This document shows, in pieces, positions 11,932 to 35,317 of a stretch of 41,711 nucleotides of DNA. The stretch is from a candidate division WWE3 bacterium RIFOXYB1_FULL_43_24 (GTDB taxonomy: Bacteria > Patescibacteriota > WWE3 > UBA101185 > UBA10185). The translations under genes were made by a program, and so were the position numbers. The stretch's first letter is position 1, and every line of letters begins with the position of its first letter. The DNA lies in contig MEVX01000012.1 in the NCBI GenBank assembly GCA_001773135.1, forward strand, positions 1 through 41,711, read 5' to 3'. Under the pieces are notes generated by a model that saw only the letters and a list, made by a program, of their open reading frames with translations, was not told the origin of the DNA and ran no database searches.

Positions 11932-12020
11932 AAGGACTCGGTCACCGGTTCGCGTCTGCTGACGCGCCCGTCGACCCCCTCTCGCTCGCCTTCGCTCGCT
12001 GCGAATCATTCTCGTCCTGC
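11932..12020 (-). repeat. Structured repeat element A (tRNA-Pro associated)
   Basis: Minus strand: GAATGATTCGCAGCGAGCGAAGGCGAGCGAGAGGGGGTCGACGGGCGCGTCAGCAGACGCGAACCGGTGACCGAGTCCT; shares GCGAGCGAAGGCGAGCGAG, GGTCGA, TCAGCAGA loop and GTGACCGA with elements B/C. Confidence 0.75.
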
Positions 12021-12079: not shown

Positions 12080-12156
12080 TGGTCGGGGTGACAGGACTCG
12101 AACCTGCGGCCTTTCGCACCCCATGCGAACGCGCTAGCCAACTGCGCCACACCCCG
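12080..12156 (-). tRNA. tRNA-Pro (anticodon GGG), encoded CCA
   Basis: CGGGGTGTGGCGCAGTTGGCTAGCGCGTTCGCATGGGGTGCGAAAGGCCGCAGGTTCGAGTCCTGTCACCCCGACCA; 7-bp acceptor, TTCGC/GCGAA anticodon stem. Confidence 0.95.
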
Positions 12157-26815: not shown

Positions 26816-26905
26816 TTTGTTCATACCTTATTTTTTAAAAGATGAAGAACTTGGTGCGGTGCCGAAAAACTTTTGATATTTTACTTCAATGGATCGTACG
26901 GTCTG

Positions 26906-27008
26906 ATTGGCTGGGGGACAGGGATTCGGTCACGCATAAAATTCTGCTGAATTTTTGCTCGACCCCGCCTCGCTCGCCTTCGCTCGCTCCGGCATTCGAA
27001 TCCTCCAA
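26906..27008 (-). repeat. Structured repeat element B ending in tRNA-Gln 3' end
   Basis: Minus strand GGATTCGAATGCCGGAGCGAGCGAAGGCGAGCGAGGCGGGGTCGAGCAAAAATTCAGCAGAATTTTATGCGTGACCGAATCCCTGTCCCCCAGCCA; 26906-26967 identical to 28304-28365. Confidence 0.9.
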
Positions 27009-27131
27009 ATCACAACAATAAAAAATGTCCGCAAATCCTGCGGACTTCCGGCCATTTTTCATGGCTGAGCACACGGATCTAGAACCTTAGTCTTTCTCCG
27101 AGATGATTATATATAGTTTTAATAATTAAGG

Positions 27132-28058
27132 TTAACGATTTTCCTGTAAATAGGCTTCAATTAGTTTTATATCATTCAAGTCTTTTTCTCTACCTAAAGC
27201 TTTTTTAAATAATTTTAGCGTAGACAGCTGCACATAGGGATGTCCATCAAGGATCTCAGCTTCTTTTACCTGTGTCTCAACCGGGCAAATGTTTGGATTT
27301 GTGAAATGCGATCCCTCACCTAGAATTGTTACGTTTCCTATTTGAATTGTTTCAAATCTTTCGCTTATGACAGGGTATTTGACTTTATACCTATCCCAAA
27401 CACTAGGTAAAACAATAATATCCAGATCATGTGGTTCTCTTAGGTTTCTTACGGCTAGTGGGCCGGAACCTGTTATTGCATATTCTCCAACTAATAAACC
27501 AATTTGGTCTAACTCTTTGAGGAGATTAGTTAGTATCCCCTGTTTCTCCTCAATTAAAAACTCTGAAAACGTATTCGGATATGGATATTCATGGTCATTT
27601 CTATGCATAGATATAACACTTATTTCGTTATCAATTTTATGAAGAAAGTCGCACACATTTTTGTATGACCCATGATTATCGTTTTCGTTCTGAATAAATA
27701 ACATTTTATTTTTAGGAATACTTTTGAGTATCGAGTAGTGTTCGCAGTCTTCAGAGGATAGATCTTCCAGAGGTATACCGTTAAGAATTATTTTATTTGT
27801 TAATGAAGATTCTTTTTCTAACAATTTAATTGTTACATAGGTTCCAATGGATTTTGCGAGGATATTTATTTTCTGGTTTTTATATTTTTCGCTAACTCCA
27901 TCCGCGGTTTTTTCGATCCAATTTTTGGTTGCAACACCTGTTTTCCAGTGATCCCAATATATTACTTCGGAATCAACATCCGGAGAAAGTTCCTTGCTTA
28001 TATGTTCCGCCCAATCTTTATTTTTTATTGAAAATCCGGGAAGAATTAGTGTTTTCAT
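27132..28058 (-). CDS. Alpha/beta-hydrolase-like domain fused to nucleotidyltransferase-like domain
   Basis: N-term LILPGFSIKNKDWAEHISKEL, NILAKSIGTYVTIKLL, IQNENDNHGS; C-term YAITGSGPLAVRNLREPHDLDIIVLP and ALGREKDLNDIKLIEAYL (NTase/AbiEii-like). TATAAT 6 nt upstream of ATG. Confidence 0.65.
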   Translation of the reverse strand: MKTLILPGFSIKNKDWAEHISKELSPDVDSEVIYWDHWKTGVATKNWIEKTADGVSEKYKNQKINILAKSIGTYVTIKLLEKESSLTNKIILNGIPLEDLSSEDCEHYSILKSIPKNKMLFIQNENDNHGSYKNVCDFLHKIDNEISVISMHRNDHEYPYPNTFSEFLIEEKQGILTNLLKELDQIGLLVGEYAITGSGPLAVRNLREPHDLDIIVLPSVWDRYKVKYPVISERFETIQIGNVTILGEGSHFTNPNICPVETQVKEAEILDGHPYVQLSTLKLFKKALGREKDLNDIKLIEAYLQENR

Positions 28059-28196
28059 AATTCAATTATACAGTGAGTTTTATATAAAAAGACCCTTCGG
28101 ATCTAGAATTTCATAAAAGGATATTTACTAGCCCTAAAAGGCTATTCGAGGCTTCATGGTCACTTGCATGCCCACTCTGGCCAGCAGTATTGTATG

Positions 28197-28286
28197 TTAT
28201 CTGAAGAATATTGCCCAAATTAGGGCAATAAATAAAACTATTAATAATCCTATAGCTCTTCCAACAAAAAACTTTTTAGGTGTCAT
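28197..28286 (-). CDS. 29-aa single-TM microprotein (MTPKKFFVGRAIGLLIVLFIALIWAIFFR)
   Basis: Read directly; not in ORF track. TATAAT (28293-28298 on minus) six nt upstream of ATG. Confidence 0.5.
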   Translation of the reverse strand: MTPKKFFVGRAIGLLIVLFIALIWAIFFR

Positions 28287-28303
28287 GGAGTTATTATACA
28301 TTT

Positions 28304-28402
28304 ATTGGCTGGGGGACAGGGATTCGGTCACGCATAAAATTCTGCTGAATTTTTGCTCGACCCCGGCTCGGCACCGTCGTGCCTGCGCCATTCGAATCTT
28401 TC
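28304..28402 (-). repeat. Structured repeat element C ending in tRNA-Gln 3' end
   Basis: First 62 bp identical to element B; different first arm with WC hairpin GGCAC-GACG-GTGCC. Confidence 0.9.
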
Positions 28403-28506
28403 CGCCTTCAACAAGTAATTTGTCAACCAACCCTGCGGGCTGCTTGCCAAATCACTGGCTGGCGGTTTTGCACGCTATTTGAATTTTGTAGTTATAATAT
28501 TGTTAT

Positions 28507-28968
28507 ATGAGTCTTACTTCAAAAGAATTGATTAATGGATTTAAGAAATCCTATTATCGTACTAAAGATGCGAAAAACTCGGAAGAAATATTAGAAGTGT
28601 ATTACTCCCTGTTCGAGACACTAAACTGGGTTGTGGCGATCGATTACAAACTATGCGCAGAAAAAAATGACAATAAATGGTTTTCAAAACTAGGTTCCGA
28701 TGGTGATTATATAAATGCGCTGAGATTTGCAAGGAACAGGACTTACCATCAGTGGTTTACTATATTTAAATTAGATCGAAATGATACTTTTCCTGCAATA
28801 TTTCCTATGCTTCTTTCTACATGGAAATGGTGCCCTTTATCAGATATACCTTCTGAAAGAGGTCAAAAAGAGGACCCAAACGATGAAAAACTCTACGTAA
28901 AACTTTTGGCAAACAGACCCGTAAAAGATGCTTTAGTGATTATTGATAAAATATTTTCTATTACCTGA
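28507..28968 (+). CDS. Hypothetical protein, possible HEPN-like fold
   Basis: Helical; ALRFARNRTYHQW contains R-x4-H (RNRTYH). TATAAT 28493-28498 upstream. Confidence 0.5.
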   Translation: MSLTSKELINGFKKSYYRTKDAKNSEEILEVYYSLFETLNWVVAIDYKLCAEKNDNKWFSKLGSDGDYINALRFARNRTYHQWFTIFKLDRNDTFPAIFPMLLSTWKWCPLSDIPSERGQKEDPNDEKLYVKLLANRPVKDALVIIDKIFSIT

Positions 28969-29041
28969 ATTATTTTAGTGGCCGTTTTGTAAGCTATTTA
29001 AACTGTTATTTTACAACGTACTGTGGTATAGAGTAATAAAG

Positions 29042-29380
29042 ATGGAGATTCATAGAAAAACAAAAGAAAGATATGGCTCTTTTTTTGAAGATAGGATTTG
29101 GCTAGCATGGGCAGAAGGCTGGTTTAAGATTCTCGAATGGTTAACCCTGATAGCTTTATTCGAGTATGTTTCAGTTACGACCGGTAGTAAAATACTAAGT
29201 TTTATAGTAACCATCTCATACACACTACTGTTTTATTATCTATATAACAAACTTTTTAATACTTGTTGGTTTAGATATAGACTGTCGAAGCTTTGGTCTA
29301 CGATCAGCTCTCTTATAATAACAGTTTCTGCATTTGCATTAGTAACAAAAATAGTAGAACAAATTACAGGAAAATATTAG
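29042..29380 (+). CDS. Hypothetical small membrane protein
   Basis: 2-3 predicted TM helices (LTLIALFEYV, ILSFIVTISYTLLFYYLY, SLIITVSAFALV). Confidence 0.5.
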   Translation: MEIHRKTKERYGSFFEDRIWLAWAEGWFKILEWLTLIALFEYVSVTTGSKILSFIVTISYTLLFYYLYNKLFNTCWFRYRLSKLWSTISSLIITVSAFALVTKIVEQITGKY

Positions 29381-29524
29381 TATTAGACGATAACAATAGA
29401 AACCAATTATCATTTCGCTGGGTATACGGCATAAATACTCATATGTATTTAGTAATACCAGAGCTGAAAGTTAGCGGATGTTGTTGGCACAATCTTGATT
29501 TTGAAAGACTTGACCGCATTTTTA

Positions 29525-30115
29525 TTAATAACCATTGAAAACATTTCCACAATAGGGACATTTTTCTCCAACTTTTACATTTTCGTTAATACAGTAAGGG
29601 CAAAACATAGGATTATCCTGATCTTCTATATATTCAGGTGAGGGTGAAGGAGAAGGAGATACGGAGACAGCACTTGCAAGACCCGAAGCAGTACTCACTG
29701 CAGTGCCTGCTGTCATTTGATCAATCACATTGTTAGTCACTTTTTTTAGCATCGATTTTAGATCGATAAGACCTTGTGCTTGATTAAGGGATAAAGCTTC
29801 AACCTTGGAATTAAGTTCTTTTAATAGGTCAAAATCAACATCCTTTTGAGCATACATAGCTGCTACTTTTTTATACCACCAATCTCTCATTTGCGTTATT
29901 TCTCTACGTTTTTCAGGGTTAGCACCAAACCAAGTATGGCAATTAGGACATAGCGGAGCTGCGTTATCAAATGTATCCTCTCCTTGTTCTTTTTGCGGTA
30001 TTATATGGTGCGCTTCAATTCCAATATTCTGACACCTACAACACCTGAATGCCGATTTTTCCTTAACGTTATTAATAATTGCTTCACTAAAAGCCATATA
30101 ATCGGGTTGTAGCAT
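29525..30115 (-). CDS. HNH endonuclease-like protein with C-terminal zinc ribbon
   Basis: AFRCCRCQNIGIEAHHIIPQKEQGEDTFDNAAPLCPNCHTWFG (HNH) and CPYCINENVKVGEKCPYCGNVF (Zn ribbon); TAATG overlap with upstream gene. Confidence 0.8.
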   Translation of the reverse strand: MLQPDYMAFSEAIINNVKEKSAFRCCRCQNIGIEAHHIIPQKEQGEDTFDNAAPLCPNCHTWFGANPEKRREITQMRDWWYKKVAAMYAQKDVDFDLLKELNSKVEALSLNQAQGLIDLKSMLKKVTNNVIDQMTAGTAVSTASGLASAVSVSPSPSPSPEYIEDQDNPMFCPYCINENVKVGEKCPYCGNVFNGY

Positions 30116-30783
30116 TAAGCTCTAGACCAACCCCCTTCAATAAGTTCTCTTGTTAATTTGGCTTTTTGAGGGTGTATATATAGATTTCTTATGATATCTT
30201 CAATAACATCAATACAGAGAGACAGATCATCTTTATGATGCTTTTTGATTTCATGAGTAGCTAAATTGCCAATATCTTTAACAAGCATGAGCAATACTGC
30301 ACCATCTCTTGTAATAATATTTTTATGAACCATCTCATCTATTTTTGTGTTTATCCCCTGAACCTTTATGTCTTGTTGAATTGATATTGCCTCAATAGTG
30401 GTTCGTACTCCTATTGCTGTAAGAATTAGCATCCCTGCGTTAAAGGATTTTATTGTTTCTTCATAAATTGTACGTACATCTTTAGGTATGCTGAAATAAC
30501 CGTTTACTAATTCCCTATCACTTCTAAAGGGCGTTGGATGTACACTTTCTGTGATGTCAGGATCGCCAGTTTGCGGGTCTACATCTTCACTGCTAACATA
30601 TCTGATCAATAAACAAATGTTATCACAACCTAAACATCGCAAAGTAAGAAAAGTTGTACTGTCCCATATATCACCATCATCGCTAGTTCCAAATTTTTCA
30701 TACTCATTGATTACATTGTGCCAAGTTTCTTGCTGGCAAGCTTTACACATTATTTTACTTTTATATTTTTTTGACACATTCAT
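30115..30783 (-). CDS. DUF4145-like domain protein
   Basis: N-terminal CxxC pairs (CKAC..., CLGC) and AIGVRTTIEAI...MVHKNIITRDGAVLLMLVKDIGNLATHE. Confidence 0.75.
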   Translation of the reverse strand: MNVSKKYKSKIMCKACQQETWHNVINEYEKFGTSDDGDIWDSTTFLTLRCLGCDNICLLIRYVSSEDVDPQTGDPDITESVHPTPFRSDRELVNGYFSIPKDVRTIYEETIKSFNAGMLILTAIGVRTTIEAISIQQDIKVQGINTKIDEMVHKNIITRDGAVLLMLVKDIGNLATHEIKKHHKDDLSLCIDVIEDIIRNLYIHPQKAKLTRELIEGGWSRA

Positions 30784-30806
30784 AGATTTGGTTCAGCCAA
30801 TATTAT

Positions 30807-31718
30807 TTAAGTTTTATCCTCTGAAATTAATTGACTATATGCGGCCTTAAATACTTGCCAGCAAATATGGGCCGTATTTTCATCGGGGTTAAATGCTTGT
30901 GCAACCTGTTCATGTGGATGAATAAAATTTCTAAAATCTCTTAGAGCATGACTAAATTTCTTCACGTCTAGCTTAAGACGCTTCGTTGAATATGAAACAT
31001 CAATCAAATCTGATAATGTCCAATCATATATCTTTTTAATATATCCGTTTTTATCTTTGGGCGCAGAGTTGTTAGTCATGAATTCTTTTTGGTTTTTTAA
31101 AGCTACTCCAAGCAATATACCTTCCAGCGTACTCCCTAACTGAAAGATAAGACTTAAATTAAGGTCACTTTCTAAGCAACGTCGCGCTTCATTAACTCTA
31201 TCTGTAAGTACCTGTGTAATAACAGAATCTAGATTTAATTTATTAATATCAATCTCATCGCTATAATCCTTTTTTAAAAACTGATTAATTTCATTATCTG
31301 AAGATGCGTTATTTGAAAGTTTATCTCCATCTATATTAATTGATTGAATTCGTTTAAGAGTAGGGGTTGCTCCAATATACTCAATTTTCATTGCTTCCAT
31401 GCCAAGTAACTCATTCATTGCTTTGTACGCCATGGCTAGAAGTTTTTGATCGCCTTTGTATTCTTTCGGGTCAACTAACCTTAGTAGCACCTTTTCGAAT
31501 TCAGTAGGTATTAGTCTGTTTAAAGTTTCTAATACCCACCATTTACGGGTAGATCCGTCATGTGCAACGTTAATTCCTATATTTTGAAAAAATCTAGTTA
31601 GATATGATGAAGATCTGTAAACTGGGTAACGTTCCTTTATATCTCCGCAAATGAAATCAGCTATTGTTTCTACAACGGCAGGGTCAGGTAATTGTCCAAA
31701 GTGTAAACTATTGTCCAC
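30807..31718 (-). CDS. Abortive-infection (AbiJ/Abi_C)-like protein with HEPN-like C-terminus
   Basis: C-terminal KFSHALRDFRNFIHPHEQ (RNxxxH); N-terminal YLTRFFQNIGINVAHDGSTRKWWVLETLNRL. GTG start, TATAAT 6 nt upstream. Confidence 0.65.
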   Translation of the reverse strand: MDNSLHFGQLPDPAVVETIADFICGDIKERYPVYRSSSYLTRFFQNIGINVAHDGSTRKWWVLETLNRLIPTEFEKVLLRLVDPKEYKGDQKLLAMAYKAMNELLGMEAMKIEYIGATPTLKRIQSINIDGDKLSNNASSDNEINQFLKKDYSDEIDINKLNLDSVITQVLTDRVNEARRCLESDLNLSLIFQLGSTLEGILLGVALKNQKEFMTNNSAPKDKNGYIKKIYDWTLSDLIDVSYSTKRLKLDVKKFSHALRDFRNFIHPHEQVAQAFNPDENTAHICWQVFKAAYSQLISEDKT

Positions 31719-32013
31719 ATAAGAATTATAACACTCGATGGTTGCAACCGCGGCCTTTAATATTTAGACTTCGCTTATACTCAACAATATCTACAAGTTG
31801 ACTATTTCTACATAAAATGCTACCCACCTATACGCTAATAATGGTTTGGGATATAACTTTTCTAAGGCTTATTCTTTACTCTACAAGGCGGTTGAGATTA
31901 CTAATAGTTCGGAAATCAAAAATATTAAGGAATTTCGGGATTATATTTCCGAACCTGACGAATTAGTTGCTAGTAAAATGAAAACTGACTCTTTTCGAGC
32001 CATTCGTTCCTCT

Positions 32014-32087
32014 TGGCTGGGGGACAGGGATTCGAACCCCAATTTTTGCATCCAGAGTGCAAAGTCCTACCATTAGACGATCCCCCA
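32014..32087 (-). tRNA. tRNA-Gln (anticodon CUG), encoded CCA
   Basis: TGGGGGATCGTCTAATGGTAGGACTTTGCACTCTGGATGCAAAAATTGGGGTTCGAATCCCTGTCCCCCAGCCA; 7-bp acceptor. Confidence 0.95.
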
Positions 32088-32257
32088 ATAGAGCGGTTAT
32101 TGCCTGAAACCGCAGTGTGATTTTACCACTCAAATAGCCATTATTGAAACATAAGCCCGTCAGGGCGCTACCTCTGGCTAACCTAATAATACCCAAACCG
32201 TCCCCTCCCAGAAATCTCTCCGTTGTCGTATTGACCGCAATGAGATAAAATCAACCC

Positions 32258-35093: not shown

Positions 35094-35168
35094 GGCCCCA
35101 TCGTCTAACGGCTAGGACGGCGGATTCTCATTCCGTAAATCGGGGTTCGATTCCCCGTGGGGTCACCA
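35094..35168 (+). tRNA. tRNA-Glu (anticodon CUC), encoded CCA
   Basis: GGCCCCATCGTCTAACGGCTAGGACGGCGGATTCTCATTCCGTAAATCGGGGTTCGATTCCCCGTGGGGTCACCA. Confidence 0.95.
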
Positions 35169-35298
35169 TGAACAGGTTCTTCACCGAGTATACGAGGTGG
35201 AGGTTCTGTTTATGTGATTCTCGCAAGGGAGCGGACTAACTTTAGTTATGTTCGACCATTGCGTAATGAAATGAAGCAATCGCTTTGATGGAGTCAAA

Positions 35299-35317
35299 AT
35301 TCCCCGTGGGGTCACCA
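35299..35317 (+). repeat. 19-bp exact second copy of tRNA-Glu 3' end
   Basis: attccccgtggggtcacca at 35150-35168 and 35299-35317. Confidence 0.92.

Follow-up and report, generated by a model that had tools for sequence, protein, structure and literature searches.

A previously undescribed hairpin element of about 145 bp recurs across the candidate phyla radiation (CPR), downstream of many tRNA genes and of the tmRNA gene. The window analysed here is the whole 41,711-nt stretch of contig MEVX01000012.1 from candidate division WWE3 bacterium RIFOXYB1_FULL_43_24 (assembly GCA_001773135.1; genome G000 below), in which two copies of the element, B and C, stand at the ends of gene cassettes beside a tRNA-Gln gene (Table 1). 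The account that we favour as the probable one has two layers, in which a small, non-autonomous, attC-like element would have settled at the tRNA and cassettes carried by large serine recombinases (LSRs) would then have entered at CCA ends. The cassette layer is a known kind of process, with serine recombinases acting at a tRNA end and cassettes accreting in tandem; the element is the unusual part.

A first-pass annotation of the same DNA had reported that the 22-nt 3' end of tRNA-Gln, TTGGCTGGGGGACAGGGATTCG, recurs in one orientation, and exact copies are indeed found on the + strand at 26907-26928, 28305-28326 and 32013-32034 (zero expected in shuffled sequence). It had also joined the extra copies to a structured element, in agreement with single-strand folding, in which both B and C fold better than their shuffles (z of -2.1 and -2.9, respectively). 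The repeat shared by B and C is real, but is 67 nt long with one mismatch, plus parts of the flanks, rather than the 62 bp given, and the proposed microprotein (a 62-aa open reading frame, or ORF, at 26886-27074) falls within element B and is probably no gene. Each unit opens with a left arm complementary to the T-stem; two hairpins (1 and 2) follow, and the unit closes with the tRNA 3' end repeated from T-loop to CCA. A spacer, usually with a hairpin, lies between element and tRNA (the one of element C, H_C, is not conserved). The junction between element and tRNA copy reads GTGACC/GANTCC in nearly all copies. Distances are also regular, usually 82-95 nt from the tRNA end to the GGGGTCGA box and 141-154 nt to the end of the copy, with some units of 110-115 nt that have no spacer hairpin.

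Table 1. Features of the window that bear on the element and the cassettes
Feature	Position	Strand	Remarks
Third element copy	11932..12019	-	Downstream of tRNA-Pro(GGG) 12080-12156; covariance-model and pattern matches
Element B	26908..27061	-	tRNA-Gln end copy 26908-26928; folded core 26920-27005; left arm; terminator-like hairpin H_B 27027-27045
Second-type LSR attR, TGGCTGAGCACACGGATCTAGAACC	27062..27089	+	Abuts hairpin H_B; matching half-site pair joined in G002 at L108:7238
Cassette c, one ORF 27132-28058	27090..28147	-	Possible hydrolase + nucleotidyltransferase-like fusion; homologous fragment in the G002 tRNA-Gln(TTG) array
Second-type LSR half-site, GGCTTCATGGTCACTTGCATGCCCACTC	28148..28177	+	Near-identical sequence abuts tRNA-Gln beside an LSR in G007; also in G002
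Element C	28306..28455	-	tRNA-Gln end copy 28306-28326; folded core, covariance-model match 28318-28401; left arm; hairpin H_C
LSR attR, partial tRNA-Gln end TGGCTGG + CGGTTTTGCACGCTATTTGAA	28456..28483	+	Abuts hairpin H_C
Short cassette b, one ORF 28507-28968	28484..28978	+	Bounded by two LSR half-sites
LSR attR-like half-site, TGGCCGTTTTGTAAGCTATTTAAA	28979..29002	+	Chance expectation 0.01
Cassette a cargo (DUF4145, HNH, membrane ORF, others)	29003..31830		Between LSR remnant and next att-like joint; ORFs, Pfam
LSR 3'-end remnant	31831..32013	+	Convergent with tRNA-Gln, reads into the tRNA; ends ...SFRAIRSSWLGDRDSNPN
tRNA-Gln(CTG), target gene	32014..32087	-	ARAGORN; Rfam RF00005 58.7 bits

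Copies of the element were sought with a covariance model, R1, and in G000 also with the loose core pattern GGGGTCGA-N-GTGACC, for which the reversed pattern served as control. G000 contains 12 copies by the model and 11 by the pattern (none by the reversed control). At every locus of the window's family whose context is readable, a tRNA or tmRNA gene stands upstream of the element and in the same orientation, and in almost all cases the 3' end of that very gene, T-loop through CCA, is repeated after the element (the copy beside tRNA-Pro(GGG) in the window has decayed after GAGTCC). The genes used include Gln, Pro, Gly, Arg, Leu, Ala, Lys, Ser, Ile and Val tRNAs as well as tmRNA; with one or the other beside nearly every copy of readable context, a scatter of such repeats over random non-tRNA sites is not what is seen. 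In relatives the element is usually on its own, cargo-free and some 85-90 nt away from the tRNA, and the block of element C itself directly adjoins tRNA-Gln in two members of the same genus (G002 and G003). Two-unit tandem arrays without cargo occur at tRNA-Gly in G000 and at tRNA-Leu(TAA) in G002. A second kind of insert was noticed in the window at 35094-35317 (+), where tRNA-Glu(CTC) is followed by a different sequence of about 149 nt, whose end again repeats the 3' end of the tRNA; this second family is likewise present at tRNA-Glu in G001, G003, G005 and G028, i.e. in all five genomes checked. At another locus (L278:5004-5255) two identical 157-bp units follow tRNA-Val in tandem, in a genome where that tRNA has no encoded CCA.

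At tRNA-Ala(GGC), G000 and G002 have the unit, whereas the site is empty in G003 and G005 (all genomes compared are drafts); beyond the tRNA copy, the G000 sequence resembles the flank of the empty site. Occupancy also varies at tRNA-Arg(TCG), tRNA-Pro(GGG), tRNA-Gly(CCC), tRNA-Leu(TAA) and tRNA-Gln(CTG). Thus the structured element recurs at other tRNAs of related CPR genomes with presence/absence variation, whose absence the first-pass annotation would have counted against mobility. On a wider scale, 52 of 389 CPR genomes, representing 43 of 321 genera, have the element according to the covariance model, and most of the CPR-wide loci examined again lie beside tRNAs or tmRNA, some with islands between gene and element. 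Strict pattern matches came from WWE3, Berkelbacteria and a few other CPR assemblies, as well as from two actinobacterial sites unrelated by context. One WWE3-like element beside a tRNA-Arg is in a contig labelled Moranbacteria (L183, PFVN01000016.1), which is possibly mis-binned. Three or four loci in other families have apparent interrupted tRNA copies beside an intact tRNA. At L271:9260, L276:5395 and L274:16433 the element lies within tRNA copies apparently interrupted in the T-loop, with an intact tRNA of that kind immediately downstream in each case, and two of these loci have a common left module, CTTGAGCGRGTGGARCGCGAAAG. The element had no match in phage and plasmid collections, and no description of it was found in the literature searched, coverage of which was partial.

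One may also consider an explanation without mobility, in which the tRNA end and its flank were duplicated in tandem long ago and the inverted repeats of the unit have been kept perfect by template switching. The exact tandem units at L278, the vertical inheritance seen at some tRNAs (the second family at tRNA-Glu, in five of five genomes) and the lack of homogenisation within lineages would fit such a history. However, an identical 25-nt hairpin 2 is found in several genera and next to several different tRNAs, orthologous sites exist in both filled and empty form, and the element is spread over many CPR families, all of which make this scenario unlikely in our view.

The fold of the element is reflected in how its copies vary. 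In 36 diverse copies the three-way fold was paired in 88.3% of cells versus 72.4% in shuffles, two-sided changes were present at 20 pairs, and the covariation score was 0.457, as compared with 0.147 for shuffled and at most 0.082 for slid versions. In a second set of 28 further matches, mostly from other CPR families, the score was 0.615 versus 0.174, a comparison in which the alignment had been fitted to the structure model and therefore favours pairing. The left arm also pairs with the tRNA copy: position 3 of the arm, which pairs with a variable T-loop position of the tRNA copy, was complementary in 96% of cases, versus 47% when arms and copies were permuted.

Strong covariation and conserved loops might also be expected of an RNA, e.g. 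a riboregulator, a processing signal or a tRNA-like RNA transcribed together with the tRNA, especially as the element is always downstream on the tRNA strand and ends in a CCA-bearing, tRNA-like 3' end. In the internal stems of the element, however, G-T pairs are as rare as A-C pairs (5 and 6, respectively), whereas tRNA stems of the same genomes contain 57 and 3 (Fisher p about 4e-9 for the rarity of G-T in the element). Since an RNA would tolerate G-U far more than A-C, this pattern suggests that complementarity is kept at the DNA level, and that it is probably folded DNA, not RNA, that is maintained. A terminator-like hairpin often lies between tRNA and core (as H_B does in element B), and the element had no match in Rfam even at permissive thresholds; both speak against an RNA role, which we consider decidedly unlikely.

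The cargo has a different origin. Contrary to the earlier view that no integrase is visible, the ORF remnant abutting tRNA-Gln is the 3' end of an LSR gene, and the sequence at 31831-32089 is 89% identical in nucleotides to the end of an intact LSR gene of G002 that reads into tRNA-Gln(TTG). The full-length G002 homologue has both Resolvase (PF00239) and Recombinase (PF07508) domains, intact there, and only the 3' end is left in the window. Intact homologues abut tRNA 3' ends across CPR, and in about 20 CPR loci LSR genes overlap tRNA 3' ends head-on. The window has the half-site TGGCGGTNTTGTACGCNATTTGAA at 28460 and 28979, and this half-site recurs at two cassette joints of the G002 tRNA-Gln island (chance about 0); the motif at the CCA end is TGGC.GGT.TTG.ACGC.ATTTGAA, and the predicted attP of the G002 LSR is CTCTTTTCGAGC..TTCCTCT joined to TGGCGGTNTTGTACGCNATTTGAA. 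The end of the target gene is restored, with tRNA-Gln intact and att half-sites at 28456, 28979 and 27062. Judged by these sequences, the cargo is made up of LSR cassettes joined at tRNA CCA ends, and the suggestion that tandem cassettes were joined at copies of the tRNA end was in this respect correct. A tyrosine integrase was not found in the cargo by phmmer in the fetched islands. As to gene content, Pfam supports the HNH (PF01844) and DUF4145 (PF13643) assignments of the first reading, though not its "HEPN-like" and "Abi-like" ones, which had no Pfam match; its hydrolase call corresponds to a sub-threshold PF06821 hit (16.3 bits, cut-off 22), and PADLOC found only weak resemblances to type-IV restriction and PD-T7-4.

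At tRNA-Gln(CTG) the flanking genes are kept in G002 while the cargo is different, which supports the first-pass annotation, and this combination indicates a true variable locus. Cassettes of a single gene occur in the G002 tRNA-Gln(TTG) array, together with a fragment that has homology to cassette c. This LSR island also encodes a G2P-like (PF05144) rolling-circle replication protein (L189:9190-10272, +), which suggests a single-stranded DNA stage. Accretion on a large scale was seen in G009 (L288-L290), with three tandem LSRs at tRNA-Asn and three at tRNA-Ser.

Two other roles for the element at these islands have to be weighed against the LSR joints. In the first, which was the model of the first-pass annotation, the cassettes use the structured B/C site as their own att site and are mobilised in trans. 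The cassette array is real and the copies do bracket cargo, B and C standing at cassette ends, yet the half-sites at the cargo joints are those of LSRs and lie at the CCA end, apart from the T-loop joint at which the element meets its tRNA copy, and most elements have no cargo at all; we therefore regard this model as very unlikely. In the second, the element would be a decoy, kept as protection for the tRNA, whose spare tRNA end draws serine recombinases off the real tRNA and its terminator. Cassette c does sit on the tRNA-end copy in C, and in G001 an LSR abuts the copy in the tRNA-Lys element rather than the tRNA. In contrast, an LSR or its remnant lies at or beside the real gene in cassette a of the window, at tRNA-Pro in G012 and at the tmRNA of one Berkelbacteria genome, and the conserved hairpins are left unaccounted for, so that the decoy has, to our minds, only a small chance of being right.

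Returning to the two-layer account, we infer the following order of events. The tRNA-Gln gene would first have gained two tandem copies of the element, C and then B, a pre-cassette state for which the cargo-free tandem units at tRNA-Gly (G000) and tRNA-Leu(TAA) (G002) are the models. LSR elements would then have entered at the CCA end of the real tRNA, bringing cassettes a and b and parting the tRNA from C; since the half-site at 28456 abuts the spacer hairpin of C, the first island presumably went in between tRNA and C. Cassette c would have entered where the tRNA copy of C ends in CCA, parting C from B, as the second-type half-site at 27062 abuts the spacer hairpin of B and so places another cassette between the C copy and B. 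Later the LSR gene would have been deleted except for its last ~60 codons. The element itself may act as folded single-strand DNA or as a cruciform, its basal stem mimicking the T-arm of its tRNA, and would most likely be a recombination site like integron attC, with tRNA T-loops as targets and a recombinase supplied in trans. Our leading guess, by analogy, is that such an attC-like single-stranded site is the simplest mechanism that would account for the shared T-loop joint, the T-arm-mimicking stem and the DNA-level fold.

Several points weigh against this account. It leaves unexplained how the new tRNA 3' end is duplicated and how the left arm is matched to it, and template switching at quasi-palindromes could yield matching arms without selection; part of the covariation comes from the structure-fitted second set. 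Element sequences are no closer within a genome than between genomes (hairpin-2 identity 0.66 in both cases), so recent bursts are unsupported and a recent burst within one genome was rejected. No excision circle was observed, and no recombinase specific to carriers of the element was found: G000 has only two tyrosine recombinases (PF00589), both XerD-like and both common to relatives lacking the element, which score 128.8 and 43.5 bits against the integron integrase model TIGR02249 (cut-off 265). A Y1 transposase (PF01797) was not found in the six same-genus genomes (G000-G005) and was set aside as the machinery of the element.

The element may be compared with several known systems. It resembles integron attC in being short, in covarying as a folded single strand with complementary arms (as both covariation and G-T rarity indicate), and in having a basal stem terminating at the point of exchange, and the arrays resemble those of integrons in that cassettes pile up beside a fixed target, here a tRNA. 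It differs in that there is no IntI, the XerD-like proteins falling below the integron-integrase cut-off, and in being a three-way junction with two conserved hairpins that mostly carries no cassette. Integrons have at their exchange point the core site R'/R'' GTTRRRY, whereas the joint of the element is in the T-loop, at GTGACC/GANTCC. SCC elements are serine-recombinase islands with tandem accretion, and like them the cassettes have their LSR on the side nearest the target, are separated in tandem by attR-like repeats and have the newest member by the target; here, however, tRNA 3' ends are targeted, the LSR gene reads into the target, and some cassettes are single genes with no recombinase. 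REP/RAYT and IS200-like hairpin elements are also short, dispersed, hairpin-forming and non-autonomous, but the present element is strictly tRNA-associated, with target-specific arms, and Y1 transposase is absent from the six same-genus genomes. Finally, as in tRNA-integrated genomic islands, the tRNA 3' end is duplicated and the tRNA stays intact, whereas the insert is only ~145 bp, has no gene and one conserved fold, and uses many tRNAs. An extension of the analogy, in which tRNA T-arms would be universal attachment sites of a CPR-wide integron-like system and a folded single-stranded hairpin, rewritten for each tRNA, its mobile site, is tentative and more probably wrong than right.

The genomes of CPR bacteria are very small, and little is understood of the ways in which these organisms gain genes. 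In about an eighth of the CPR genomes sampled, tRNA ends are marked by a single conserved DNA element; its arms adapt to each tRNA, and it is located where serine-recombinase cassettes accumulate. The model R1 provides a searchable signature for mobile DNA in uncultured CPR bacteria, and the element raises the question of whether the tRNA T-arm may serve as a single-stranded recombination site.

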